Shown: positions 4,661 through 58,621 of the stretch, piece by piece
How the letters are laid out: each line of letters starts with the position of its first letter
How positions within the stretch are numbered: the first letter of the stretch is position 1
DNA from: Salinicola acroporae
Lineage (GTDB): Bacteria > Pseudomonadota > Gammaproteobacteria > Pseudomonadales > Halomonadaceae
Direction of reading: 5' to 3'
Assembly (NCBI RefSeq): GCF_003206615.1
Contig: NZ_PZJW01000003.1
Span: 124,001-188,000, forward strand
DNA length: 64,000 nucleotides
Program-made: the position numbers and the translations under genes
Notes under the pieces: generated by a model
What the model was told of the DNA's origin: nothing
Seen by the model: only the letters and a program-made list of their open reading frames with translations
Database searches by the model: none

Positions 4661-6940
4661 ATGCTACTTGCAACCGATCTCGACGGCACCTTTCTGGGCG
4701 GCGACTCCGAAGCCCGCCTGAGCCTTTACCAGACCATTGCCGCGCATCCGGACATCAAGCTCGCCTACATCAGTGGCCGCAGTCTGGAAGCGATCCTGCC
4801 GCTGCTGTCCGACCCAACGCTGCCTCAGCCGGACTATATCGTCGCCGATGTCGGCGCCAGCCTCTATCTGGGTGACAGCCTGCAGCCGATCCAGCCGCTG
4901 CAGAACGAGATCGATTCCCGCTGGCCCGGCGAATCCCGGATCGCCAGCGCCATGCAACGCTTTCCCGACGTGGTGCGCCAGGACGAACCGCAGCTGCGAC
5001 GCTGTTCCTACTACTGCCCGCCCGAGCGCGCCACGGACGAGGCCCTGGTCGCCCTCGCCCGGGAACTGGACTGCGAGATGCTCTACTCGGCCGAGCGCTA
5101 CCTCGATTTCCTGCCGAAAGGGGTCAACAAGGGCAGCAGCCTGCAGAAACTGGTCGAATGGCTCGAGATCGACGAGGAAGAAGTACTGGTGGCCGGCGAC
5201 ACCATGAACGATCTCGCCATGCTCACCGCCGGTTTCAAATCCGTCTGCGTCGGCGGATCCGAACCCAAACTGCTCGAGCAGACCCAGAACCAGACGCGGG
5301 TGATGCACGCCGAGAACACCGGCTGTGCCGGCATCATCGAAGCGTTTGCCCACTTCGGCTTTCTCGGCGCCCATGGCGTGGCGGCGGAGAACCGTCGCGA
5401 CGAAACCCAGACCGGCAAGGCCGAGCTGGTGATGGTCTACCACCGCCTGCCTTACGAGGAGTATCGGGTCGACGGCAAGATCCAGCGCCGCCGTCCGACC
5501 TCGCCCAACGGCATCATCCCGACGCTACTGAGTTTCTTCGCCGACCAACGCGGTTCGTGGATCGCGTGGTCGATCTACGAGGAGGAGGACGAAGAGGAAT
5601 TCGTCACCCACACCAGCGTCGATGCCAAGCAGTATCCGCTGCTGACGGCTGCCCGCGTTCCGCTGACCAAGGTCCAGGTCGACACTTTCTACAAACGCTT
5701 CTCCAAGGAGGCGTTCTGGCCGACCTTGCACACCTTCTGGGAGCGTGCGCACTTCCGCGAGGACGACTGGGAAGTCTACTGCGAGGTGAACCGCGCCTTC
5801 GCCGAACGCACCGCCGAAGAGGCCGCCGAGGGGGCGCTGATCTGGATTCACGATTACAACCTGTGGATGGTGCCGGCCTATCTCCGCGAGATGCGTCCCG
5901 ATCTGCGTATCGCCTTCTTCCATCACACCTATTTCCCTTCGGCGGATGTCTTCAATGTGCTGCCATGGCGCCGCGAGATCATCGGCAGCCTGCTGCAGTG
6001 CGACTATGTCGCCTTCCACATCCCGCGCCAGGTCGAGAATTTCGTCGATGTCGCCCGCGGGGTCGTCCCGCTGACCACGTTGTCCCGCCAGGGCTGCGCG
6101 CCGCGATTCCTGACCTACGGCTGCGCGGTGGGACTCGAGACCATGACCACGGCGGTCGATACCGGCTCACGGGTGGTGAGGCTCGGCGCGCACCCGGTAG
6201 GACTGGATCTCAACCGGATCAGGAACGCGCTCGACCAGGAGGGCGCCAGTTCGCGCATGGCCGAACTGCGCCAGGAGTTCGAAGGCGTCAAACTGATTCT
6301 GTCGGTCGAACGACTCGATTACACCAAGGGCATTCTCGAGAAGCTCCAGGCCTACGAGCTCCTGCTCGACGAGAATCCCGAGCTGCGCGGCAAGGTCACC
6401 CTGGTCAGCATCTGCGTGCCCGCCGCCCGCGAGATGACCATCTACAACGAACTGCAGACCCAGATCGAGCAGACCATCGGTCATATCAACGGCCGCTTCG
6501 CCGATGTCGGCTGGACGCCGGTTCAATTCTACTTCCGCGGGTTCCCGTTCGAGGAGGTCGTCGCCTGGTACGCGATGGCCGACGTGATGTGGATAACACC
6601 GCTGCGTGACGGCCTCAATCTGGTCGCCAAGGAGTTCGCTGCCACCCAAGGCATGACCCAGGGCTGCGGCGTGCTGGTGCTGTCGGAGTTCGCCGGCGCA
6701 GCGGCGGAGTTGAAGGGCGCGATCCTGACCAACCCCCACGATCTTCACGATCTGGCCCGGACCTGCTACCTGGGGCTCAACCTGCCTCGCGCGGAAGCGG
6801 AGGCACGCCTGCGCCAGTTGAACGACATCGTCAGCTACAACGATATCCGACGCTGGGGCGACGAATTCATCGCCGCCATTCAGGGCCAGGAACCCGAAGG
6901 CACCGAAAGCCCGGCCAATCCGACCAGCGATCTGGTCTGA
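4661..6940 (+). CDS. ggpPS: Bifunctional glucosylglycerol-phosphate synthase/phosphatase
   Basis: 759 residues. The N-terminal 240 residues are a sucrose-phosphatase-like HAD domain, with nucleophile motif DLDGT at 6-10, KGVNKGSSLQKL at 153-164 and GDTMNDLAML at 179-188. From about residue 254 the protein is a GT20 glycosyltransferase related to trehalose-6-phosphate synthase: IWIHDYNLWMVPAYL, ERLDYTKGILEKLQAYE and PLRDGLNLVAKEF are visible. Phosphatase-first fusions of this size are the GgpPS enzymes of halotolerant gammaproteobacteria, which make glucosylglycerol from ADP-glucose and glycerol-3-phosphate in one polypeptide. Glucosylglycerol is an osmolyte. A trehalose-type product is the main alternative. 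The ribosome-binding site AGGAGG lies just upstream. Confidence 0.88.
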   Translation: MLLATDLDGTFLGGDSEARLSLYQTIAAHPDIKLAYISGRSLEAILPLLSDPTLPQPDYIVADVGASLYLGDSLQPIQPLQNEIDSRWPGESRIASAMQRFPDVVRQDEPQLRRCSYYCPPERATDEALVALARELDCEMLYSAERYLDFLPKGVNKGSSLQKLVEWLEIDEEEVLVAGDTMNDLAMLTAGFKSVCVGGSEPKLLEQTQNQTRVMHAENTGCAGIIEAFAHFGFLGAHGVAAENRRDETQTGKAELVMVYHRLPYEEYRVDGKIQRRRPTSPNGIIPTLLSFFADQRGSWIAWSIYEEEDEEEFVTHTSVDAKQYPLLTAARVPLTKVQVDTFYKRFSKEAFWPTLHTFWERAHFREDDWEVYCEVNRAFAERTAEEAAEGALIWIHDYNLWMVPAYLREMRPDLRIAFFHHTYFPSADVFNVLPWRREIIGSLLQCDYVAFHIPRQVENFVDVARGVVPLTTLSRQGCAPRFLTYGCAVGLETMTTAVDTGSRVVRLGAHPVGLDLNRIRNALDQEGASSRMAELRQEFEGVKLILSVERLDYTKGILEKLQAYELLLDENPELRGKVTLVSICVPAAREMTIYNELQTQIEQTIGHINGRFADVGWTPVQFYFRGFPFEEVVAWYAMADVMWITPLRDGLNLVAKEFAATQGMTQGCGVLVLSEFAGAAAELKGAILTNPHDLHDLARTCYLGLNLPRAEAEARLRQLNDIVSYNDIRRWGDEFIAAIQGQEPEGTESPANPTSDLV

Positions 6941-49212: not shown

Positions 49213-49908
49213 TCAGCTACCCGCATACGAGCGCATCGTCTGCTGGTTCCAGGTCTCGAAGTGATCGAACATGGCCTGACGCGCCAGGTCGGGGTCCCTC
49301 GCCTTGATCGCCGCGACGATGGCGATATGGGTTTCGTTGGTCTTCTTGAGGGACTGGGGGGATTGGCGCGCGAGTACGCGGCGGTGGTGGAGCACTTTTT
49401 TCAGCACCGACGAGAGTCCCTGGAAAATGATCAGAATGGCTGGATTGCCGGCCATGATTGCCAGCTGTTCGTGGAACTCGTAGTCGGCCTGGAGGCCGTC
49501 GTTGATATCCGTGGTGGTGACGATGCGCTCGCAGAGCTGCTCCAGTGTCTCCAGCTCCTGGGCGGTGTGATGCGTCGCCGCGGCCTGGATGATCTCGCGT
49601 TCGAACATCTCCCGCGCCGTTTCCATGTGATCGACGGAGATATAGTTCAGCTTCAGGGCCAGTTCGAAGTAGAGCTGGATGAAGACGGGTTCGGGCATTT
49701 TCAGGAACGTGCCCGAACCCTGGCGGCGCTCGATGAATCCCAGGCTCTGGAGCACCGACAGCAGATTCCTGACCGATGAGCGATGCATCGAGAAGCGCTC
49801 GCACAGCGTTCTTTCCGGCGGGAGTTTCAGACGTCCATCGCGGGACAGTTCCGATACCGAAACGAAGTCGTGCAATTTGGCCAGAAGGTCGGAATCAATC
49901 TCGCTCAT
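49213..49908 (-). CDS. GntR-family (FCD) transcriptional regulator of the adjacent catabolic operon
   Basis: 231 residues. An N-terminal winged helix (LKLPPERTLCERFSMHRSSV, LQSLGFIERRQGSGTFL) is followed by an all-helical FCD ligand domain with metal-type histidines (EFHEQLAIMAGN; HHRRVLARQ). It is the last gene of a leftward group starting at 57282, 53 bp after the SDR. FCD regulators bind TNGTNNNACNA-like palindromes; two similar palindromes lie upstream of the operon at 57298 and 57549. It is probably the local repressor responding to the substrate or an intermediate. Confidence 0.88.
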   Translation of the reverse strand: MSEIDSDLLAKLHDFVSVSELSRDGRLKLPPERTLCERFSMHRSSVRNLLSVLQSLGFIERRQGSGTFLKMPEPVFIQLYFELALKLNYISVDHMETAREMFEREIIQAAATHHTAQELETLEQLCERIVTTTDINDGLQADYEFHEQLAIMAGNPAILIIFQGLSSVLKKVLHHRRVLARQSPQSLKKTNETHIAIVAAIKARDPDLARQAMFDHFETWNQQTMRSYAGS

Positions 49909-49961
49909 AGGCGTTCCAGTCGCTGCCGTCGGTCGAAAGAGGTCGGCGGCAGCTTAGCATG

Positions 49962-50714
49962 TCAATGAATGTGCATACCGCCGTTCACATCGATCGTGGC
50001 ACCGGTGATATAGCTGGAGAGGTCGCTGGCCAGGAACAGGAATGCGTTGGCAACATCGTCGGGTAGACCGAGCCGCTTGAGTGGAATCCCCTCGAGGATC
50101 GGAGCCTTCATCTCCTCGGTCAACTTGCCGGCAGTGATGTCGGTATCGATCAGCCCGGGCGTCACCGAGTTGACGCGAATGCCAAAGGCGCCCAGCTCGC
50201 GGGCCATCGCCTTGCCCAGGCCCAGCATCCCGGCCTTGGCGGCGCTGTAGTGGGGGCCGCCGAAAATACCGCCACCGCGTTGCGCGGAAACCGAAGAGGT
50301 GTTGGCGATCGCGCCACCGCCCGCTGCCTTCATGTGCGGCACCACGGCCTGGGACATGTAGAGCATACCGCGCAGGTTGACGTCGAGGATGCGGTCGTAG
50401 CCCTCGGGGTCGATCTCTTCGAACTTCACCGGCTGGGTGATACCGGCGTTGTTGATGAGCACATCGATCTTGCCGAATCGTTCGAGCGCGCGCTCGACCA
50501 CGTCGCGGCACTCCTCGCGGCGGGTGACATTGGCCACCACCACCAGACAGCGCTCAGGGTCGAACGCCTGGCGTACTGCTTCGCAGGCCGCCTCGTCGAT
50601 ATCGGAAATGACGACGCTGGCGCCGTGTTCGTGGAATAGTCTGGCGGTCTTCAAGCCGATGCCACGGGCACCGGCGGCGCCAGTGATGAGGCAGACTTTG
50701 TTGTCGAGAAGCAT
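49962..50714 (-). CDS. Short-chain dehydrogenase/reductase (SDR)
   Basis: 250 residues. The start MLLDNKVCLITGAAGARGIG was chosen on GGAGA spacing; seven extra in-frame codons upstream include a second ATG pair. The NAD(P) motif is TGAAGARGIG (an expanded TGxxxGxG), NNAG is in DVLINNAGI, catalytic Ser is in NTSSVSAQ and Tyr/Lys in HYSAAKAGML. An acidic residue after strand 2 (VISDIDEA) favours NAD. It likely oxidises or reduces a polyol or keto-acid in the pathway encoded by the operon. The exact substrate is unknown. Confidence 0.88.
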   Translation of the reverse strand: MLLDNKVCLITGAAGARGIGLKTARLFHEHGASVVISDIDEAACEAVRQAFDPERCLVVVANVTRREECRDVVERALERFGKIDVLINNAGITQPVKFEEIDPEGYDRILDVNLRGMLYMSQAVVPHMKAAGGGAIANTSSVSAQRGGGIFGGPHYSAAKAGMLGLGKAMARELGAFGIRVNSVTPGLIDTDITAGKLTEEMKAPILEGIPLKRLGLPDDVANAFLFLASDLSSYITGATIDVNGGMHIH

Positions 50715-50731
50715 GCGGGTATCTCCAGGCA

Positions 50732-51565
50732 TCATTGAAGGTTGTCGAGCCGTTCGAGGGAACGGCCGAGTTTTTCCTCGATCAAATCGAGAGGCAGTGG
50801 CTTGTCGTCCCGCCAGGGTTGCGCCTGGGGGTCCCGGTGGAGCCGGAAGGGAAGTTCCAGCGAGAACGGCCGCTCGGCGGCCATGAGGGCGCGGAGCACG
50901 CGGGCCTCGTCGATATCGCTGTCGCCGAGTTCGGTGAAGTCGTACCCGTTGGCCGTGCGGTGGCAGGGCTTGATATGGAAGTGATCCGCTAGTGGCAGGG
51001 CCTGCTCGATGTCCGCCTCGGGTGAGCGTGCGGGCTGGTGCGAGAGCAGGTTGCCGCAGTCGTAGTTGATGCCGAAGGTCGCATCATCGAGGGTGGCCAT
51101 CAGCGCCGGGATGTCGCCGGCGTGATCGAGCATGTTGGGTTCACCGTTGCCGGGGTTCTCGAGCAGGATGCGCACGCCATGGTGGCGCGCGATATGACCC
51201 ATCCGCTCGGCATTGGCGAGAAAGCGTGCCCGGTTGCCGAGCGTCGCGGCATTGGTGATGACGAACTTGGCGCCGAGTGCTGCGGCGAATCGGCAGCGCG
51301 CTTCGAGTCGCGCCGGGGCGTTGTCCAGGCCGAGATCGATATGGCCGGAGAAGTAGCGGCAGTGCTGATCGAGACCGCGCATCTCGCGACACAGGTCGTC
51401 GGCCAGTGCCAGGGTCAGATCGGCATCGGTGAACGTCTCCACGTAGCCGTCGATGAAGGCGAACTCGACTTGGCGCACGCCGCAGCGAGCCAGGGACGGG
51501 AGGATACGGTCGAAGCCGTAACCGTCGTAGGCCGCGGTGCTGACGGAACACGAAAGCGCGCTCAT
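50732..51565 (-). CDS. Sugar isomerase/epimerase-like TIM-barrel protein (AP endonuclease 2 family)
   Basis: 277 residues. The xylose-isomerase-like barrel pattern is visible: VEFAFIDGYVETF, HIDLGLDNAPAR, ILLENPGNGEPNM (metal Glu), FGINYDCGNLLSHQ (metal Asp) and DHFHIKPCHRT, ending ERPFSLELPFRLHRD (metal Glu). These fit the divalent-metal ligands of the family. It probably isomerises a keto-acid or ketose. It overlaps the dehydrogenase gene by four bases and lies 17 bp before the SDR start. Confidence 0.82.
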   Translation of the reverse strand: MSALSCSVSTAAYDGYGFDRILPSLARCGVRQVEFAFIDGYVETFTDADLTLALADDLCREMRGLDQHCRYFSGHIDLGLDNAPARLEARCRFAAALGAKFVITNAATLGNRARFLANAERMGHIARHHGVRILLENPGNGEPNMLDHAGDIPALMATLDDATFGINYDCGNLLSHQPARSPEADIEQALPLADHFHIKPCHRTANGYDFTELGDSDIDEARVLRALMAAERPFSLELPFRLHRDPQAQPWRDDKPLPLDLIEEKLGRSLERLDNLQ

Positions 51566-52470
51566 GCCTGGGTGCCTCCCTCGGGGTCGCAGCCGTTGAG
51601 CCGGCGATAGGTGCGGATCAACTGGCTGTCGTCCAGGCGGCCCTCACCGCCCTCGGCCGTGGCCACGAAGAGCTGATGCGCGCTGTGGGCGAGAGGCGTG
51701 TAGGCCCGCGACGAGCCGGCGGCGTCGCAGACGATGCCCAGATCCTTGCAGAAGATGTCGATGGCGCTGGTGACCTCCCCCGGCGGTGCGACCATTCGCG
51801 GGCCACGGTCGCGCAGCATCCAGCTCGAGGCGGCCGACCCCTGGACCAGCTCGAGGGCGACCTGCCGGTCGATGCCGCTCTTCTCGGCCAGGGCCAGCGC
51901 TTCCGCCGCCGCTGCGATATGCACCCCGCATAGCAGTTGATTGACCGCCTTCATGGCCGCGCCCTGCCCGGGGCGATCGCCCACCTCGAAGATCGCCTGG
52001 CCGAGGATGTCGAACAGCACATGACAGCGCGCGAGTGATGGCGCCTCGCCGGCGGCCATGATGCTGAGCGTGCCGGCTTTCGCCCCCACCACGCCGCCCG
52101 ATACCGGGGCATCCACGTAATGAAGATCCGGCCGCACGGCCGCGACCTCGGCGGCCAGCGCTGCGGCATCGGCCGGCGCGACGGTGGACATCTGCACGAT
52201 GCAGGCGTCTGCGGGCAGTTGGGATACCAGCCCACCGGCGACGAGAACATCCGAGAACAGTAGCGCGCGAATCTGCGCGGCGTTGACCACCATGATCACC
52301 AGCGCCTCGACGCTATCGATAGCGGCTTTGTGACCGGACGCCTGGCGGTGAAAGGCGTCGGCGCGCTCGCTCAGGGCGTCCAGAGCGAGTACCTCGAGCC
52401 CGGCCTGGTCGAGGTTCTCGGCCATGGGCCAGCCCATGGCACCCAGGCCTGCAACAGCGACTCTCTTCAT
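51562..52470 (-). CDS. Beta-hydroxyacid dehydrogenase (LtnD/GarR-like)
   Basis: 302 residues. The Rossmann motif is VAVAGLGAMGWPMAENL, the substrate-binding segment DAPVSGGVVGAKAGTLSIMA (consensus DAPVSGG) and the catalytic lysine is in GQGAAMKAVNQLLCG. CKDLGIVCDAA is the C-terminal signature. Closest in motif content to L-threonate/tartronate-semialdehyde type enzymes, which oxidise a sugar-acid C2 or C3 hydroxyl. It sits between the TIM-barrel isomerase (4-bp overlap) and dctM. Confidence 0.86.
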   Translation of the reverse strand: MKRVAVAGLGAMGWPMAENLDQAGLEVLALDALSERADAFHRQASGHKAAIDSVEALVIMVVNAAQIRALLFSDVLVAGGLVSQLPADACIVQMSTVAPADAAALAAEVAAVRPDLHYVDAPVSGGVVGAKAGTLSIMAAGEAPSLARCHVLFDILGQAIFEVGDRPGQGAAMKAVNQLLCGVHIAAAAEALALAEKSGIDRQVALELVQGSAASSWMLRDRGPRMVAPPGEVTSAIDIFCKDLGIVCDAAGSSRAYTPLAHSAHQLFVATAEGGEGRLDDSQLIRTYRRLNGCDPEGGTQA

Positions 52471-52479
52471 CAGGATTCC

Positions 52480-53739
52480 TCAGTAAAGGATCATTGCGGG
52501 CACGTACGAGACGAGCAGCAGCACGCTGATCGCAACGAGATAGAACGGAATGAGTTCGCGCACGACGCTGCCGATGCGCTCGCGCGCGATGGCCGAGGCG
52601 ACGAACAGCGTGGTACCGATAGGGGGTGTGAACAGCCCGATGCTCAGGTTCACGCACATGATGATGCCGAGCTGGACCAGATCCATGCCGATGGCGTTGG
52701 CGATCGAGACCAGGGTCGGCCCCAGCAGCAGGATCGCCGCCGGTAGATCGAGGAACATGCCGATGAACAGCAGCAGCAGGTTGATCGCCAGAATGACCAG
52801 GATCGGATTGCCGAGGGTGTCCACCGCCCACTGGGCCACCGCCTGGGGCACACCACCGCTGGTAAGGATGTAAGCGATGATATTGGCGGCGGCGATGATC
52901 AGCATGACCATGCCGGTCGTCATCACCGTGCCCGAGAGCGCGGCGACCACGCGGGCGAGGGTCAGGTCGCGGTAGATCAGCGCGCTGACCATCAGCGCGT
53001 AGGCCACGGCGATGATGCTGACCTCCGTGGGCGTGGCGATACCGGTGCGCAGCAGCACCAGAATGATCACCGGCATCAGCAGGGCGGGCAGTGCGGTGAT
53101 CAGGATGCTCCGGACCTCCTGTGCGGTGTACTTCAAGGTGAGGCGGGGAAAGTTGCGGCGCTTTCCGGTCACGTAGCAGGCGGTCATCATCCCGATCGCG
53201 AGCATCAGCGCCGGCAGCACGCCGGCAATGAACAGCGCCGCGATGGAGACATTGGAGACCGTGGCGAACAGGATCAGCGGGATCGACGGCGGCATCAGAC
53301 CGGCGATCACCGACGACGAAGCGGTGACCGCGGCGCCGAAGGCGCCAGGGTAGCCCTCTCTCTTCTGCCAGGGGATGAGCATCGACCCCAGCGCCGACGC
53401 CTCGGCAACGGCAGAGCCGGAAACACCGCCGAAGATCGTCGAACCGACCACGTTGACCTGGCCGAGCCCGCCGGGGTACTTGCCGACCAGCATCGAGGCG
53501 AGCGCCACCAGGCGTTGCCCCAGCTTGCCGGACATCATCAGGCTGCCGGAGAGCACGAAGAACGGAATCGCTAGCAGCGGAAAGCTCTGGGTCGGCTGGA
53601 AGATCTTCATCACCACCATGCTCGAAGGCATCGAGCCGAACACCGACAGCGCCGTCCAGCCGCTGATCACCAACGAATAGCCCACCGGCATCGCCATCAG
53701 CATGAGCAGCACGAAGGAGATCAACATGTTGACCGTCAT
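52480..53739 (-). CDS. TRAP transporter large membrane subunit DctM
   Basis: 419 residues, about 12 hydrophobic segments. TRAP-M signatures include MAMPVGYSLVISGW, FPLLAIPFFVLSGSLMMSG, GGVSGSAVAEASALGSMLIP and FTPPIGTTLFVASAIA. It uses an ion gradient, usually Na+, to drive solute uptake delivered by the binding protein DctP. The start ATG overlaps the dctQ stop. Confidence 0.94.
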   Translation of the reverse strand: MTVNMLISFVLLMLMAMPVGYSLVISGWTALSVFGSMPSSMVVMKIFQPTQSFPLLAIPFFVLSGSLMMSGKLGQRLVALASMLVGKYPGGLGQVNVVGSTIFGGVSGSAVAEASALGSMLIPWQKREGYPGAFGAAVTASSSVIAGLMPPSIPLILFATVSNVSIAALFIAGVLPALMLAIGMMTACYVTGKRRNFPRLTLKYTAQEVRSILITALPALLMPVIILVLLRTGIATPTEVSIIAVAYALMVSALIYRDLTLARVVAALSGTVMTTGMVMLIIAAANIIAYILTSGGVPQAVAQWAVDTLGNPILVILAINLLLLFIGMFLDLPAAILLLGPTLVSIANAIGMDLVQLGIIMCVNLSIGLFTPPIGTTLFVASAIARERIGSVVRELIPFYLVAISVLLLVSYVPAMILY

Positions 53740-54299
53740 GAGGCTTTCTCCCCGTGGGTCGCCAGCGACTCGGTGACCGTCAACCGGCGGTCGAGCGCGA
53801 TGAGAACGTTGAGCAGGGAAACCAGTGCCAGGCCAGTAAAGCCGACGACGACCGACCAGTAGGACCACGACATGGCGATGCCGGTAATGGGCAGGCGCTG
53901 GCCGCCCGCGATGGCGACCACGTCCAGCCCGTGCCAGGCGATGAGTGCGAAGGCGACGACCGCGAGCAGGTTGGTCGCGAGCCCGATCACACGTCGCAGC
54001 GGCTGCGGCAGCCGTTCGACTACTGCCTCGATCCCGATATGCTCGTTCTTGGCTGCGGTCGCGACGATCGCGCACATGGTGAGCCACGGAAACAGGATGT
54101 TGGGGACTTCCGACGTCCAGTCGAGATTCGTCTCCCACACGTAGCGCACGAACACGGCCGCCAGCAGCGTGGCGAACATCACCAGCAGCGAGAGAATGCC
54201 GAGCCACTTGAACAGGTGATGAATCGCGGCTTTCAGGCGCAGTGGTGGCGAACCGGGATGCCCCGGTTCGCCATGCCTTCCTGCGATGACATCAGACAT
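53736..54299 (-). CDS. TRAP transporter small membrane subunit DctQ
   Basis: 187 residues, four membrane helices: KWLGILSLLVMFATLLAAVF, VPNILFPWLTMCAIVATAA, LATNLLAVVAFALIAWHGL, SYWSVVVGFTGLALVSLLNV. VRYVWETNLDWTSEVPN is the typical first-loop signature. The N-terminal 25 residues are a soluble polar extension. It pairs with DctM. Confidence 0.9.
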   Translation of the reverse strand: MSDVIAGRHGEPGHPGSPPLRLKAAIHHLFKWLGILSLLVMFATLLAAVFVRYVWETNLDWTSEVPNILFPWLTMCAIVATAAKNEHIGIEAVVERLPQPLRRVIGLATNLLAVVAFALIAWHGLDVVAIAGGQRLPITGIAMSWSYWSVVVGFTGLALVSLLNVLIALDRRLTVTESLATHGEKAS

Positions 54300-54314
54300 G
54301 GCGAACGCTCCCGT

Positions 54315-55337
54315 TTACTGTGACGCGTTTTTCGCGGCTTCGACGACCATGTCGACCATCTTCGGGTACTTCTGCCGCCAGGCATCGTAGACGCCGCGCG
54401 TGGCCTCGATGAAAGGCGCCTGATCCACCTCGTTGAACGCCACCCCCGCCTGCTCCATCTTCGCGCGGAGCTCCTTGTCGGCCGCGAGCGAGGCCTGCCG
54501 GTTGTACTTTCCGGCTTCGATGGCGGCGTTCTGGATGACCTTCTGTTGCTCGGGAGAGAGTCCGTCCCAGACGATCTTGCTCATCAGCAGTGGCGTGGAC
54601 TCGTACTTGTGGCCGGTGAGCGAGATGTACTTCTGCACTTCATAGAGCTTCGACGAATAGATGTTCATCAGCGGGTTTTCCTGGCCATCCACCACGCCCT
54701 GCTGCAGCGCGATATAGAGCTCGGAGAAGTTCATCGGGGTTGGCGTCGCCCCCAGCGCGTCGAAGATATCGACGGTCATCTCGTCCGGCGGCGTGCGGAT
54801 CTTGAGCCCCTTCAGATCGGCGGGCTTCTCAATCGGGCGGACGTTGTTGCTGACGTGGCGGATGCCGTTGTCCCACATCGCCAGCAGGACCAGCCCCTGT
54901 TCCTGCGCCAGGCGCTTGAGTTCGTCGCCGACCTCGCCATCCATTACCTTCCAGGCGGTGGGCAACGAATCGAACAGAAACGGCAGCCCCAGCACGGAGA
55001 ACTGCGGGACGATGCTCGCCACCGGGCCCTGGCTGTTGGCGCTGAACGCTAGGCTGCCCATGCGCATCAGGGTCAGCGCTTCCATATCGTCGCCGTATTG
55101 GGCGTTGCCACCCACATCGACGTGGATCTCTCCGTGGGTGCCCTCCTCGACGAGCTTGGCGAAGCGCACGGAGGCTTCCCATTTGGGATTGCCCTCGGCG
55201 GCGTTGTGGGCCAGTTGCAGGGTTTGCGCTGCCAGCGCCGGCGTGGTGGCGGCGAGAGCGGCAACCAAGGCCGTGGTTTTCAGGGTCTCTGTCGGGATCG
55301 CTTTCAGAATCGCTTTAATCATTGTCGTTGCGCTCAT
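54315..55337 (-). CDS. TRAP transporter substrate-binding protein DctP
   Basis: 340 residues with a signal peptide (about 1-37, cut after ATTPALA). The mature protein has the TRAP fold: AEGNPKWEASVRFAKLVEEG, LPFLFDSLPTAWKVMDG, PADLKGLKIRTPPDEMTVD (the conserved Arg that grips the carboxylate), MNFSELYIALQQGVVDGQEN. That Arg means the ligand is probably an acid. It precedes dctQ by 15 bp. Confidence 0.92.
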   Translation of the reverse strand: MSATTMIKAILKAIPTETLKTTALVAALAATTPALAAQTLQLAHNAAEGNPKWEASVRFAKLVEEGTHGEIHVDVGGNAQYGDDMEALTLMRMGSLAFSANSQGPVASIVPQFSVLGLPFLFDSLPTAWKVMDGEVGDELKRLAQEQGLVLLAMWDNGIRHVSNNVRPIEKPADLKGLKIRTPPDEMTVDIFDALGATPTPMNFSELYIALQQGVVDGQENPLMNIYSSKLYEVQKYISLTGHKYESTPLLMSKIVWDGLSPEQQKVIQNAAIEAGKYNRQASLAADKELRAKMEQAGVAFNEVDQAPFIEATRGVYDAWRQKYPKMVDMVVEAAKNASQ

Positions 55338-55384
55338 GGTTGCTGACGGGATGTGGTGAAGTCCTCGCTGTGGCGCGTTTCGGC

Positions 55385-56395
55385 TCAGCTGGCGTGCGTG
55401 AGCGAGATCCGGGACGCCAGGGTCTTCACCATTGCCTGGGTCGAGATGCCATAGCGGTCATGCAGGGTGGGCAGTGCGCCGGCGTCGAGAAACGTGTCCG
55501 GCAGCCCGATCTGGTGGAACTCCGGGTGCACGCCGGTATTCATCAGGAGTGCGGCCACGCTCTCGCCCAGCCCGCCGATGACGGAGTGATTCTCCGCCAC
55601 GTAGACGGGACGCTGGGGATGACGCCGGATCTCCTCGAGAATCGTCTGCGCATCCAGCGGCTTGATGGTGGGGGAATGGAGGACACCTACATGCATGCCG
55701 CGCTCGGCGAGGAGATCGGCCGCTTCGACGGCACGCATGGTCATCAGCCCGGAGGAGACGATCAGGGCATCCTCGCCATCCATGAGTCTGCGCGCCTTGC
55801 CGATCTCGAAGCGGTAGTCCGGAAAACGATCGAGCACGCGGGGCACCTTGCCGCGCAGCAGACGCAGGTAGACCGGCCCATCGTGGGCGGCCATGGCATG
55901 GGTAGCCTGCTCGATATCCACCGCATCACAGGGGTCGACGATGGTGAGGTTCGGCATGCCGCGGAAAATCGCCATATCCTCGGTCGCCTGATGGCTCGGC
56001 CCGTAACCGGTGGTGAGGCCCGGCAGCGCGCAGACGATCTTGACGTTGAGTTTCTCCTCGGCGATCGCCATGCAGATGAAGTCATAGGCCCGGCGTGAGG
56101 CGAAGACGCCATAGGTGGTCACGAACGGTATGAAACCCTCGCGTGCCATGCCGGCACCGGCACTCATCAGCAGCTGCTCGGCCATCCCCATCTGATAGTG
56201 GCGCTCGGGATAGGCCTGGGCGAAGACGTGTAGATCGGTGTACTTGCCCAGATCTGCGGTCATGCCGACGATACGCTCATCGGCCGCGGCCGCCTCGACC
56301 AGGGCGTGGCCGAAGGGTGCCGAGGTGGTCGGCTGACCTTCCGCCGCCAGTGAAGCGATCATCGCGGATGTCTTGAGTCGCGGTTGGGTCGTCAT
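55385..56395 (-). CDS. Transketolase, C-terminal (pyrimidine/catalytic) half
   Basis: 336 residues. This is the second half of a split transketolase: FGHALVEAAAADERIVGMTA, MGMAEQLLMSAGAGMA (the Glu that activates the thiamine ring), TTYGVFASRRAYDFI and the transketolase C domain (ALIVSSGLMTMRAVEAADLL). It overlaps the N-terminal half gene by four bases. Split transketolases occur in sugar-acid catabolic operons where they act on keto-sugars with no phosphate or an unusual one. Confidence 0.9.
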   Translation of the reverse strand: MTTQPRLKTSAMIASLAAEGQPTTSAPFGHALVEAAAADERIVGMTADLGKYTDLHVFAQAYPERHYQMGMAEQLLMSAGAGMAREGFIPFVTTYGVFASRRAYDFICMAIAEEKLNVKIVCALPGLTTGYGPSHQATEDMAIFRGMPNLTIVDPCDAVDIEQATHAMAAHDGPVYLRLLRGKVPRVLDRFPDYRFEIGKARRLMDGEDALIVSSGLMTMRAVEAADLLAERGMHVGVLHSPTIKPLDAQTILEEIRRHPQRPVYVAENHSVIGGLGESVAALLMNTGVHPEFHQIGLPDTFLDAGALPTLHDRYGISTQAMVKTLASRISLTHAS

Positions 56396-57282
56396 GAGTG
56401 CTCGCTCCCTGCGGCGTGGGATGAATGGGCATAGGTATCGTCGAGTTGCTTCAGGGCGATGCGCCACTCGTCTTCGTCGACGCGTATGAAGTGGGTCTTG
56501 TCGCGGTCTTCGAGCAGCGGCACGCCGCGCCCCATCAGGGTGTCGCAGATGATGACGCAGGGTTTGCCGTCGGCGCTTTCCAGTGCGCTATCGAAGGCCT
56601 CGACCAGCGCGGCGATGTCGTTGCCGTTCACCCGTAGCGCGGTCCAGCCGAAGGCGCGCCACTTGTCGGCGATGGGCTCGTAGTCGAGTACGCTCGACGA
56701 CTTGTCGTCGGCCTGCTGATCGTTGACATCGACGATGGCGACCAGGTTGTCGAGCTTCCAGTGGGCGGCCGAGGCGGCGGCCTCCCAGGTCGAGCCCTCG
56801 TTGAGTTCGCCGTCGGAGAGCAGGTTGAAGATGCGCGAATGGCTCTGCTTGCGCTTCAGGCCGAGCGCCATGCCGACACCGATTCCCAGCCCGTGGCCCA
56901 GCGAGCCGCCGGTGATCTCCATGCCGGGGGTGTAGGCCGCCATCCCCGACATCGGCAGCATGCTGTCGTCGCTGCCGTAGTTCTCGATTTCGCTCTCGCT
57001 GATGACGCCTGCCTCGATCAACGCGGCATAGAGAGCGATGGCGTAGTGACCGATCGACAGCAGGAAGCGATCGCGCTCTTCCCATTCGGGGTCGTCGGCG
57101 CGCAGGTTCATGGCATGGAAGTAGGCGACCGCGAGGACGTCGGCGATGCCCAGGGCCTGGCCCACGTAACCCTGGCCCTGCACTTCTCCCATGAGGAGCG
57201 CATGGCGACGGATCCGATAGGCGCGTCGTCGAAGGGCGGGGATATCGGCGGGGGCGATCACGCGGTGGGTAGCCGGCTGCAT
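56392..57282 (-). CDS. Transketolase, N-terminal (TPP-binding) half
   Basis: 296 residues. The TPP-binding motif is LLSDGELNEGSTWEAAASAA, followed by LDNLVAIVDVNDQQADD; GGSLGHGLGIGVGMALG and LLSIGHYAIALYAALIE are also characteristic. It should form a heterotetramer with the downstream half. It is the promoter-proximal gene of the operon. A weak GGAA ribosome-binding site and the 16-bp palindrome AATTGGTTGACCAATT lie 16-31 bp before its ATG. Confidence 0.92.
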   Translation of the reverse strand: MQPATHRVIAPADIPALRRRAYRIRRHALLMGEVQGQGYVGQALGIADVLAVAYFHAMNLRADDPEWEERDRFLLSIGHYAIALYAALIEAGVISESEIENYGSDDSMLPMSGMAAYTPGMEITGGSLGHGLGIGVGMALGLKRKQSHSRIFNLLSDGELNEGSTWEAAASAAHWKLDNLVAIVDVNDQQADDKSSSVLDYEPIADKWRAFGWTALRVNGNDIAALVEAFDSALESADGKPCVIICDTLMGRGVPLLEDRDKTHFIRVDEDEWRIALKQLDDTYAHSSHAAGSEHS

Positions 57283-57297
57283 AGAACGGGTTCCGTG

Positions 57298-57313
57298 AAT
57301 TGGTTGACCAATT
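57298..57313. promoter_or_regulatory. GntR-type operator O1 (AATTGGTTGACCAATT)
   Basis: Seven-base arms AATTGGT/ACCAATT around a TG centre, directly upstream of the transketolase N gene. The TGGTNNACCA core is typical of FCD-family GntR regulators (the PdhR/LldR type uses a 3-nt centre). It probably binds the regulator encoded at 49213. Confidence 0.65.
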
Positions 57314-57548
57314 AACGGTAATGAGGGCCTGCAGTGAAAAGAAGACCGACTTTGGTCGCAGCAGCGCTATCACCCGAAGCGGGTGAATCGACTCAACCCC
57401 GTCTGAACGGAAGAAGCGGCCACGCTATATCCAAAGAATGATTATGTTTATCAGATAATTACGGGATTCTTGAGTGACGTCTGTCTGTTACGGCGAGGTA
57501 CGTCCAGGCAGGGGGCTGGAAGGGATCGGCTACTGCCAAGCTGAGACT

Positions 57549-57562
57549 AATGGTTAACCATT
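57549..57562. promoter_or_regulatory. GntR-type operator O2 (AATGGTTAACCATT)
   Basis: A perfect 14-bp palindrome sharing the core TGGTTRACCA with O1, 250 bp further upstream. The pair could support looping or serve a promoter in between. The region 57283-57681 has no gene. Confidence 0.5.
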
Positions 57563-57599
57563 TTAAGGGTGCTGGCGGCAGGTACGAGACGAGGCGTCT

Positions 57600-57680
57600 T
57601 TAGCTCACCGCCACCAGCAGGCTCTCCAGCGACTCGCGCGGAATGTCGCGGGTGATGAACACCGGCCGCGCAGCCGGGCT
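57600..57680 (-). pseudogene. Remnant: C-terminal tail of a CobW-like GTPase (COG0523)
   Basis: A 27-codon leftward fragment ends with RPVFITRDIPRESLESLLVA then VS and a TAA. The VFITRDIPRE(S/T)L segment resembles the C-terminal end of CobW/YjiA-type metal-chaperone GTPases. Its upstream part is missing; the fragment stops where the terminal repeat of the adjacent element begins. Assignment from so short a fragment is tentative. Confidence 0.4.
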
Positions 57681-57810
57681 AGGCACTGTCTAAAAAGTAC
57701 TGTGCTCGCCCATGCGGCGTTAAACATCGGCTTGCGCACCAGCCCGGTCCGGTTTCGCCGATTTTTGCCTTACCTGGCCTTCGCTCGTCGACTTTTCAGA
57801 CAGCGCCTAG
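57679..57810. mobile_element. 132-bp MITE-like element with 20-bp terminal inverted repeats
   Basis: Left end CTAGGCACTGTCTAAAAAGT (57679-57698); the right end (57791-57810) reversed reads CTAGGCGCTGTCTGAAAAGT, 18 of 20 identical. CTAG at both tips is consistent with a 4-bp target duplication, as seen with IS5-family elements. There is no transposase inside, so it would be a non-autonomous derivative or a deletion remnant. Confidence 0.7.
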
Positions 57811-57913
57811 GCGCTTCTCCGTTGAATGAGCAGGAGGAAGGCCGGGAGACAAAACGATGGAGGGATACAGTGAAGAGGCTAGGGCGACCTCTACAACCTG
57901 GCATTCGTTGCCA

Positions 57914-58621
57914 TCAACGCTCCAGAGGCAATTGGTATATCTCGGGAGAGTCGGAGAGCGACTGATGCACGCTTCGTGAAATCTCGTCGGCGAGCACCTC
58001 TCTCGCATTCGCCTCGAGCGCTGCATAAGTCGTATCCACGACCTCGCCAGGAGCCGTCTTGGGCACATCTAGATCGCGGGTGAGATCGGTGTCGATAAAG
58101 CCGACATGTAGCGCCAATACTTGGGTTTGCTGCTCGGTGAGCGCGTGTCGCAGGCCATTTGTCAGCGACCAGGCCGCGGCCTTGCTGACGCCGTAGGTGC
58201 TAAGAAAAGGCGTATTGATCCAACTGGCGACCGAGAGCACGTTGATGATTCCGCCACCACCATTGGCCTTCAGCACGGGTGCAAAGGCCTTTGTGACACG
58301 CAATGGGCCGAATAGATTCACCGCCAACTCTGCTTGCATGGCGATTTCCGCCTCAGCATCGAGAAGCGGGCGCGAGTCGGCAATGCCGGCGTTGTTGATC
58401 AGAAGGGTGACGTCATGGCAGCGCTTGGCTGCGATCTTCACCTCGTCAGGTGAAGTCACGTCCATTTGAACCGGTATCACGCCCGGGATGGCTACTCCAT
58501 CAGGGTTGCGTGCTGCGCCATAGACCTTTTTCGCGCCCAACGTCAGTGCACGCTCGGCAAAGGCCTTTCCCAGGCCACGATTGGCGCCAGTCACGAGGAC
58601 GACGGCATCTTTGAGTTTCAT
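57914..58621 (-). CDS. Short-chain dehydrogenase/reductase divergent from a TetR gene
   Basis: 235 residues. NAD(P) motif TGANRGLGKAFAERAL, VYGAARNPD with Arg after strand 2 (NADP preferred), DVTLLINNAGIAD, catalytic Ser in VLSVASW and Tyr/Lys in TYGVSKAAAWSL. Typical of small SDRs induced together with a TetR repressor for reduction of toxic carbonyls. A 24-bp inverted repeat lies between it and the TetR gene. Confidence 0.88.
   Translation of the reverse strand: MKLKDAVVLVTGANRGLGKAFAERALTLGAKKVYGAARNPDGVAIPGVIPVQMDVTSPDEVKIAAKRCHDVTLLINNAGIADSRPLLDAEAEIAMQAELAVNLFGPLRVTKAFAPVLKANGGGGIINVLSVASWINTPFLSTYGVSKAAAWSLTNGLRHALTEQQTQVLALHVGFIDTDLTRDLDVPKTAPGEVVDTTYAALEANAREVLADEISRSVHQSLSDSPEIYQLPLER

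Follow-up and report, generated by a model that had tools for sequence, protein, structure and literature searches.

What is a transketolase encoded in two pieces doing in an operon with an acid importer and two dehydrogenases? The question is raised by nine genes on the minus strand at 49213-57282 of a 64,000-nucleotide stretch of Salinicola acroporae DNA (contig NZ_PZJW01000003.1, positions 124,001 to 188,000; hereafter the window). They run tktN-tktC-dctP-dctQ-dctM-HADH-TIM-SDR-gntR and encode a two-subunit transketolase, a tripartite ATP-independent periplasmic (TRAP) transporter, a beta-hydroxyacid dehydrogenase (HADH), a triosephosphate isomerase (TIM)-barrel protein, a short-chain dehydrogenase/reductase (SDR) and a regulator. 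A sequence-only reading had described this operon as lacking a kinase, an aldolase and a dehydratase; the open reading frames and the Pfam and NCBIfam profile searches of the nine proteins, which also back the gene names, agree on both the layout and the absence of these enzymes from the nine genes. What the operon acts on, each of its reactions and its control are inferred from these data and the comparisons below. We propose a general route in which the SDR would oxidise the penultimate carbon of a sugar acid and a phosphate-blind split 'aldonate transketolase' would then remove two carbons, the sugar acid itself being neither phosphorylated nor dehydrated nor split by an aldolase. Pentonates would yield tartronate semialdehyde, and a chain one carbon longer or shorter would yield the corresponding homologue. 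We consider this route a serious candidate that falls just short of being probable.

The transketolase is divided between tktN (56392..57282, minus strand), whose 296-residue product is the N-terminal, thiamine diphosphate-binding subunit (PF00456, 131.7 bits), and tktC (55385..56395, minus strand), which encodes the Pyr and C-terminal subunit (PF02779, PF02780) and overlaps tktN by 4 bases (ATGA). All three domains of canonical transketolase (EC 2.2.1.1) score above cut-off. The closest solved homologue by sequence is the split transketolase of Carboxydothermus (6yak N chain, E=1.1e-58; 6yaj, E=3.2e-63), which shares the two-chain architecture but retains Arg, His and GED at the phosphate and acceptor positions. 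In contrast, the window's TktC, aligned to 6yaj, has no Arg at R358 and no His at H461, and GED is replaced by GY, while the Arg at R520 is retained (numbering of E. coli TktA as in PMC12016104; the mapping was made in this analysis). The phosphate residues R358 and H461 of canonical transketolase are thus both missing, and the loss of H461 is also visible in a MAFFT alignment with the genome's own canonical transketolase. The same picture was obtained for 62 further loci whose TktC is at least 60% identical, a set that comprises 18 Halomonadaceae loci selected via the TIM gene and 44 others found mostly via TktC, leaves out the window itself and holds several near duplicates. The motif LPGLT[TS]GYGPSHQ is present in 62/62, so that the H461 position is without His; the R520-equivalent Arg is kept in 62/62 and an Arg directly ahead of the APF motif is found in 0/62. 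Because the phosphate-binding residues are lost, this points to a donor that is non-phosphorylated and probably carboxylated, although the residues do not name it. The suggestion of the sequence-only reading that the transketolase may act on a non-phosphorylated substrate is therefore supported as probable.

Two known systems have a similarly altered phosphate site. In PMC12016104, the activity of E. coli TktA on 5-keto-gluconate is reported to rise by 55.3% in the engineered variant R358I/H461S/R520Q, in a system that joins the C2 unit to formaldehyde and includes glycerone kinase. This variant resembles the window enzyme in that the same two phosphate positions (R358, H461) are changed and the donor is a keto-aldonate; it differs in being a man-made single chain with a C6 donor, in which R520 is changed as well, whereas R520 is kept in the window family. 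The second system is the sulfo-transketolase (sulfo-TK) of sulfoquinovose (SQ) degradation, SqwGH with SqwI, which, in the sections of PMC11659671 at hand, is likewise a two-subunit transketolase that acts on a non-phosphorylated acidic sugar derivative, carries an altered phosphate motif (RAFDR in place of RSFHR) and works with a pathway isomerase. However, SqwGH retains both Args of RSFHR, whereas the window family has lost the first Arg, has no Asp at the His position and retains the last Arg. The window operon has an SDR and a TRAP transporter and no SQ isomerase, whereas an ABC (ATP-binding cassette) transporter is named as most likely for sulfo-TK in those sections (PMC11659671). Neither an SQ isomerase nor sulfonate end-product genes were recognised among the nine genes by Pfam or NCBIfam.

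Comparison of gene neighbourhoods across relatives showed that the split transketolase system is conserved and broader than the window alone could show. Among the 62 loci, tktN lies near tktC in 62, SDR in 59, DctP in 46, TIM in 23, HADH in 22 and a dihydroxyacetone-type kinase (DAK) in six; the loci without SDR are L073, L095 and L097. Since SDR accompanies tktC in 59/62 loci, compared with 22/62 for HADH and 23/62 for TIM, the pathway core on this neighbourhood evidence is the acid importer, the SDR and the split transketolase, with HADH and TIM as accessory enzymes. These counts do not support the order HADH, isomerase, transketolase that had been read from the window. HADH as the universal first enzyme was rejected, the SDR being the constant partner of transketolase; entry is more likely through the SDR, and HADH and TIM would more likely act on the transketolase product. 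SDR (49962..50735, minus strand; true start perhaps 50714, where its homologue 7krk begins) thus encodes a probable aldonate dehydrogenase that we propose as the entry step. Its best solved match, 7krk (E=2.5e-91), was deposited as a 3-oxoacyl-ACP reductase and is probably a sugar-acid dehydrogenase. In Acinetobacter baumannii, the SDR (L136:2975-3724) of a LysR-SDR-MFS-tktN-tktC cluster (MFS, major facilitator superfamily) differs from 7krk at two places in the first 60 residues.

If the general route is correct, transketolase would be its C-C cleaving enzyme for non-phosphorylated aldonates, and evolution would have altered the same two phosphate positions as the engineers of TktA. It would also give a function to many genes now labelled 'transketolase family protein', 'glucose 1-dehydrogenase' or 3-oxoacyl-ACP reductase, including that of the 7krk protein, and provide a natural phosphate-free transketolase for biocatalysis.

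The cluster type was found in Halomonadaceae, Pantoea, Klebsiella, Acinetobacter, rhizobia, Azospirillum, Burkholderiaceae, Rhodobacterales and Arthrobacter; the Arthrobacter and Sinorhizobium records lacked annotation. TktC relatives (E <= 1e-70) are present in 24/398 genomes of the phylum, the window's own counted and two of them at 51-52% identity, and in 14/385 genomes of the class of G496, five of them at 45-51%; the phylum and class samples share some genomes. PLSDB holds 188 records with TktC at E <= 1e-100, all 60-80% identical, some of the records being megabase-sized. Within the family, TIM is present in 28/201 genomes (the window's own counted; two matches weak). The 25 stretches around other stronger TIM matches comprise 18 with tktC, one that a contig boundary truncates (L034) and six without a split transketolase in the stretch. 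The nine genes stand in identical order in 14 of the 18 with tktC; HADH is the sole gene missing in L044, L052 and L053, and L037 is rearranged and also without HADH. Four named Salinicola contigs encode a TIM with 88-93% identity to that of the window, the match in 'Gammaproteobacteria bacterium MFB021' reaches 97%, and a contig scan with TIM as query gave seven loci. On one strand of Photobacterium sp. GJ3 (NZ_CP073579.1:1489411-1495138), matches to TIM (46%), HADH (46%) and TktC (72%) lie within 6 kb; judged from these three matches, it carries the same gene set outside the Halomonadaceae.

The importer bears on the nature of the substrate. DctP (54315..55337; TIGR00787, 296.6 bits, cut-off 175), the small permease DctQ (53736..54299; PF04290, 100 bits) and the large permease DctM (52480..53739; TIGR00786, 412.9 bits, cut-off 268), all encoded on the minus strand, score above the curated cut-offs for a DctP-type TRAP transporter. 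Loci without TRAP genes often have an MFS transporter closest to D-galactonate or metabolite/shikimate symporter models, at scores below their cut-offs. TRAP or such MFS importers point to a small acid as the imported substrate, and the import of an acid, claimed already from the window alone, can be regarded as probable. Ligands of the group to which DctP's best solved relatives belong are C4-C6 sugar acids, which do not decide the chain length. In eight loci the set is extended by a sugar ABC transporter together with a lactonase-like amidohydrolase (one representative scanned: 111 bits against the L-fucono-lactonase model, cut-off 400), and two add an SMP-30/gluconolactonase-family gene; both additions are compatible with an aldonate substrate.

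The accessory genes of relatives bear on the product. In L110 and L111, which belong to one genus, a LysR gene precedes SDR-tktN-tktC-TRAP, followed by a D-2-hydroxyacid dehydrogenase gene and a gene of the glycerate-2-kinase family (PF13660 and PF05161); the extra genes of L110 are contiguous with the operon (3-base gap, 4-base overlap). Azoarcus has tktN-tktC-SDR-HADH-TRAP-full-length transketolase-D-2-hydroxyacid dehydrogenase, and Skermanella has SDR-tktN-tktC-TRAP-HADH-D-2-hydroxyacid dehydrogenase-full-length transketolase; Azospirillum oryzae is like Skermanella but without the full-length transketolase. These three were picked because they have a matching HADH or D-2-hydroxyacid dehydrogenase. 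A quick TktC tree (74 rows, many weakly supported forks) has the loci with HADH, TIM or D-2-hydroxyacid dehydrogenase dispersed among several clades, so the extra genes look recruited more than once. This recruitment of HADH, D-2-hydroxyacid dehydrogenase and a glycerate-kinase-family gene suggests that a C3 acid leaves the transketolase.

If a C3 product and a C2 unit are formed, the donor is a C5 keto acid whose HOCH2-CO- end is free; 4-keto-pentonate, made from a pentonate, is the simplest such donor. We therefore tentatively favour pentonate catabolism via 4-keto-pentonate, with release of tartronate semialdehyde by transketolase and drainage to glycerate, as a good possibility rather than a probability. 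The TRAP system would import the pentonate, and the SDR would oxidise the carbon beside the CH2OH end to give 4-keto-pentonate (HOCH2-CO-CHOH-CHOH-COO-). The split transketolase would take HOCH2-CO- from it, hand this unit to an acceptor (a sugar phosphate or small aldehyde) and free tartronate semialdehyde, a natural substrate type of the HADH family. HADH would reduce tartronate semialdehyde to glycerate, to be phosphorylated by a chromosomal glycerate kinase; the genome has one of GlxK type. TIM would either interconvert tartronate semialdehyde and hydroxypyruvate or epimerise or isomerise the keto acid. Transketolase prefers a 3S,4R donor, and on this ground D-arabinonate and L-xylonate, both of which would yield 4-keto-D-arabonate, may be the best single substrate candidates. 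The oxidation products of acetic acid bacteria include 4-keto-D-arabonate and 4-keto-D-ribonate, according to the portion of PMC9171043 available.

Several points weigh against this assignment of the steps. No substrate has been assigned to any member of the split transketolase family, MAFFT leaves a gap at the R358 column when the canonical transketolase is aligned, and the engineered precedent uses a C6 keto acid and alters R520, which is retained here. The kinase gene of L110/L111 is named by family and scores below the NCBIfam glycerate 2-kinase cut-off (167.8 vs 550); it is contiguous with the operon in that one genus only, with a 48% match about 8 kb off in L105, and a PF13660 glycerate kinase search of the window genome found none. 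The D-2-hydroxyacid dehydrogenases, likewise named by family, fall below all NCBIfam cut-offs listed, so hydroxypyruvate, glyoxylate and 2-keto-aldonates are all possible substrates. TIM gave no NCBIfam match to 1e-5 as hydroxypyruvate isomerase Hyi (TIGR03234), and L073 and L097, which have HADH and a shikimate-type MFS without SDR, may use HADH for the entry step.

TIM (50732..51565, minus strand; PF01261), a xylose-isomerase-like TIM barrel and probable isomerase or epimerase of its own subfamily, is the least certain part of the model. A search against solved structures with its sequence gave no match. The closest solved folds to an AlphaFold2 model built from eight sequences (mean pLDDT 86.5) are mostly ketose 3-epimerases, which at 11-18% identity are too distant to indicate function.

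The engineered enzyme itself raises a C6 alternative. Here the imported acid would be a hexonate (gluconate, idonate, gulonate or mannonate), which the SDR would turn into a 5-keto-hexonate, and transketolase would free tartrate semialdehyde and a C2 unit from it; TIM might then act as isomerase ahead of another round of transketolase that leads to glyoxylate, as in sulfo-TK. This route has the sole engineered precedent, since TktA with its phosphate clamp mutated converts 5-keto-gluconate to tartaric semialdehyde (PMC12016104, in the portion available), and sulfo-TK runs two rounds with an isomerase in between (PMC11659671, likewise). Sphaerotilus holds the order SDR-TRAP-TIM-tktN-tktC, and A. 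larrymoorei has idonate/gluconate-type genes upstream. Aldehyde-oxidising genes lie near two relatives: PaoABC aldehyde oxidoreductase genes adjoin the LysR gene in Azospirillum ramasamyi, and a Pantoea plasmid carries an aldehyde dehydrogenase gene some 7 kb away from tktC. Beyond these two, however, no aldehyde dehydrogenase was found among annotated neighbours or recurring clusters, many neighbouring open reading frames not having been scanned, and the extra genes of L110/L111, Azoarcus, Skermanella and A. oryzae fit a C3 acid better. We consider a hexonate substrate unlikely, though with some claim to attention.

A C3 acid could also arise from a branched C5 donor, either 3-oxo-isoapionate formed from D-apionate or another keto acid of this branched kind, which would be split into hydroxypyruvate and a C2 unit. 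Apulose-4-phosphate transketolase does a comparable split on the phosphorylated analogue. Hydroxypyruvate would directly suit the D-2-hydroxyacid dehydrogenase, and L082, L110 and L111, which have this enzyme without TIM or HADH, speak for such a donor and against 4-keto-pentonate. In L104, L106 and L107 a gene divergent from tktN encodes a DRL catalytic domain (PF21135); with its DXR-like chemistry, this family could bring about the migration of a hydroxymethyl group. But DRL occurs in just 3/62 loci, the SDR near 59 would be left without an obvious role, and an OiaK-type kinase is not among the nine genes; a branched donor is thus quite unlikely. The three DRL loci also have an FAA-hydrolase gene near, and L104 and L106 an enolase-superfamily gene near the DRL/tktN locus; perhaps two aldonate routes lie side by side there.

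The resemblance of HADH (51562..52470, minus strand) to LtnD brings in the C4 acids. HADH is a dehydrogenase of the LtnD/tartronate-semialdehyde-reductase type and scores 268.9 bits against the LtnD model NF043037 (below 350) and 169.7 against TIGR01505 (below 340.75). The operon resembles the L-threonate pathway in having an LtnD-like dehydrogenase and a PF01261 TIM barrel beside an acid transporter; it differs in lacking OtnK and OtnC and in a TIM without BLAST similarity to OtnI. A complete L-threonate operon lies outside the window on the same contig (G000 contig C23:21488-25276; L134:6489-10277), with LtnD (453.6 bits), OtnK (621), OtnC (318.8) and OtnI (420) all above cut-off. The 3-oxo-tetronate kinase and 4-phosphate decarboxylase are found there and not among the nine genes. 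TIM had no NCBIfam match to 1e-5 when considered as OtnI, and BLASTP against the genome's OtnI gave E=5.7. The threonate pathway was rejected on the HADH score, the lack of OtnK and OtnC and the complete operon elsewhere, in agreement with the view of the sequence-only reading that the operon does not match it. A different C4 route is conceivable, in which a tetronate is oxidised to 3-oxo-tetronate and this is split into glyoxylate and a C2 unit. HADH is nearest the LtnD model and 44% identical to the genome's own LtnD, the stereochemical rule of transketolase fits L-threonate and D-erythronate, and the D-2-hydroxyacid dehydrogenase of relatives could be a glyoxylate reductase. We regard this route as very unlikely, since the genome already holds the complete LtnD-OtnK-OtnC-OtnI operon, the glycerate-kinase-family gene of L110/L111 would be superfluous and glyoxylate carboligase (Gcl) is not found above the curated cut-off in this genome. 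The genome also has eight further HADH-family matches and two DAK genes.

A last alternative comes from loci in which part of the gene set has other company. In six Halomonadaceae loci (L035, L036, L054-L057), five from another genus and one from the window's genus, TRAP-TIM-SDR lies in an island with DAK, a triosephosphate isomerase (TPI) homologue, RpiB and a canonical transketolase, and no split transketolase is present within the fetched stretch, its genome-wide absence having been checked in one island genome (G015). The pentonate model does not directly explain this pattern, which speaks for erythrulose, to which the SDR and TIM would oxidise and decarboxylate an imported acid, for use by the transketolase or by a dihydroxyacetone-type kinase. 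RpiB and DAK genes also adjoin the operon in Arthrobacter L079 and Halomonadaceae L052, and the window's own genome has such an island, minus TRAP-TIM-SDR, on another contig (G000 C9, L142:4555-19892). On the other side, TIM is near in five of the 44 non-Halomonadaceae loci (one of them, L083, fetched via TIM) and DAK in four. Erythrulose itself is deduced, for the one RpiB scanned is above the ribose-5-phosphate isomerase B cut-off and fails that of the D-erythrulose-4-phosphate isomerase model (172.8 vs 240). Moreover, the one-substrate reaction of transketolase yields erythrulose (PMC7403953, in the part available), and erythrulose formed without an acceptor could explain DAK and RpiB beside some operons (L052, L079) under the pentonate model too. 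We give an erythrulose pathway a slim chance. The C9 island contains a SorC-type regulator, canonical transketolase, the TPI homologue, DAK, RpiB, two ribose-type ABC sets and a Zn alcohol dehydrogenase, and is likely a tetritol/erythrulose island.

Returning to the pentonate model, we compared it with other known sugar-acid pathways. Apulose-4-phosphate transketolase AptAB of the D-apiose pathway is also a split transketolase dedicated to one catabolic pathway; it needs apulose kinase and a phosphorylated donor, whereas the window operon is without a kinase and its phosphate residues are gone, and AptAB is set apart here by its description. No apulose kinase was found among the nine genes, and no AptA/AptB model was among the NCBIfam matches. 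The D-apionate pathways employ ApnO, OiaK, OiaC and OiaX. OiaK (NF042436, a model present in the library) was not among the matches of the nine proteins, the SDR being judged on the best 25 of 229 families. Non-phosphorylative pentose routes pass through 2-keto-3-deoxypentonate, as the available part of PMC6336799 states, and require a dehydratase that is not present in the window operon. Sugar-acid use in Halomonas has been reconstructed with a different arabinonate pathway, and the word 'transketolase' has 0 occurrences in that paper (PMC5507952). No description of such an operon was found in the literature, judged on titles and abstract openings, with subscription literature mostly outside this scope.

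The operon probably has its own local regulator, because a pair of palindromes upstream of tktN is unique in the genome and kept upstream of tktN in relatives. Putative operator 1, ATTGGTTGACCAAT (57299..57312), lies 16 bases upstream of the tktN start, and putative operator 2, AATGGTTAACCATT (57549..57562), lies 250 bases from operator 1; similar sites occur in relatives. Both fit the palindrome AWTGGTNNACCAWT, which had 0 occurrences in 100 shuffles of the window and whose exact matches in the 4.37-Mb genome are just these two. The looser pattern TGGTNNACCA has one further occurrence in the window, at 5433. Each of the 18 Halomonadaceae loci carries it at least once in the roughly 400 bases upstream of tktN, and 15/18 carry two copies there. 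The last gene, gntR (49213..49908, minus strand), encodes an FCD-GntR regulator (PF07729 and PF00392) that may bind the two putative operators and would be freed from them by the imported acid or an intermediate. A remote kinase under the same operator is unlikely, the exact pattern being found genome-wide upstream of this operon only; looser variants were not searched genome-wide. A scan of 57200-57900 for sigma-70 promoters and terminators found nothing, nor were inverted repeats found in 57560-57920.

The spacing of the nine genes is tight, with 4-base overlaps at four junctions (tktN/tktC, dctQ/dctM, HADH/TIM and TIM/SDR) and gaps of 9-53 bases at the remaining four, and is compatible with a single transcript. 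The genes 5' of tktN vary among the four relatives scanned (cobW, lacI, gntR, dctP), so tktN is probably the operon's first gene. Ahead of the operon, a short open tail on the minus strand (57597-57680) ends in VFITRDIPRESLESLLVAVS; it may be a cobW-type remnant, because L040 carries a cobW-type gene upstream of tktN. In G510 (contig C24:278748-279722, L102), a TGA within tktC represents a sequencing error or a decaying gene. Sister split transketolases at 45-52% identity occur in L115-L121, and in six of these seven loci the greater part of the phosphate-free motif is retained. L116 and L120 have an enolase-superfamily gene close by and L121 has a homologue of one, and this sister group possibly serves another sugar-acid pathway.

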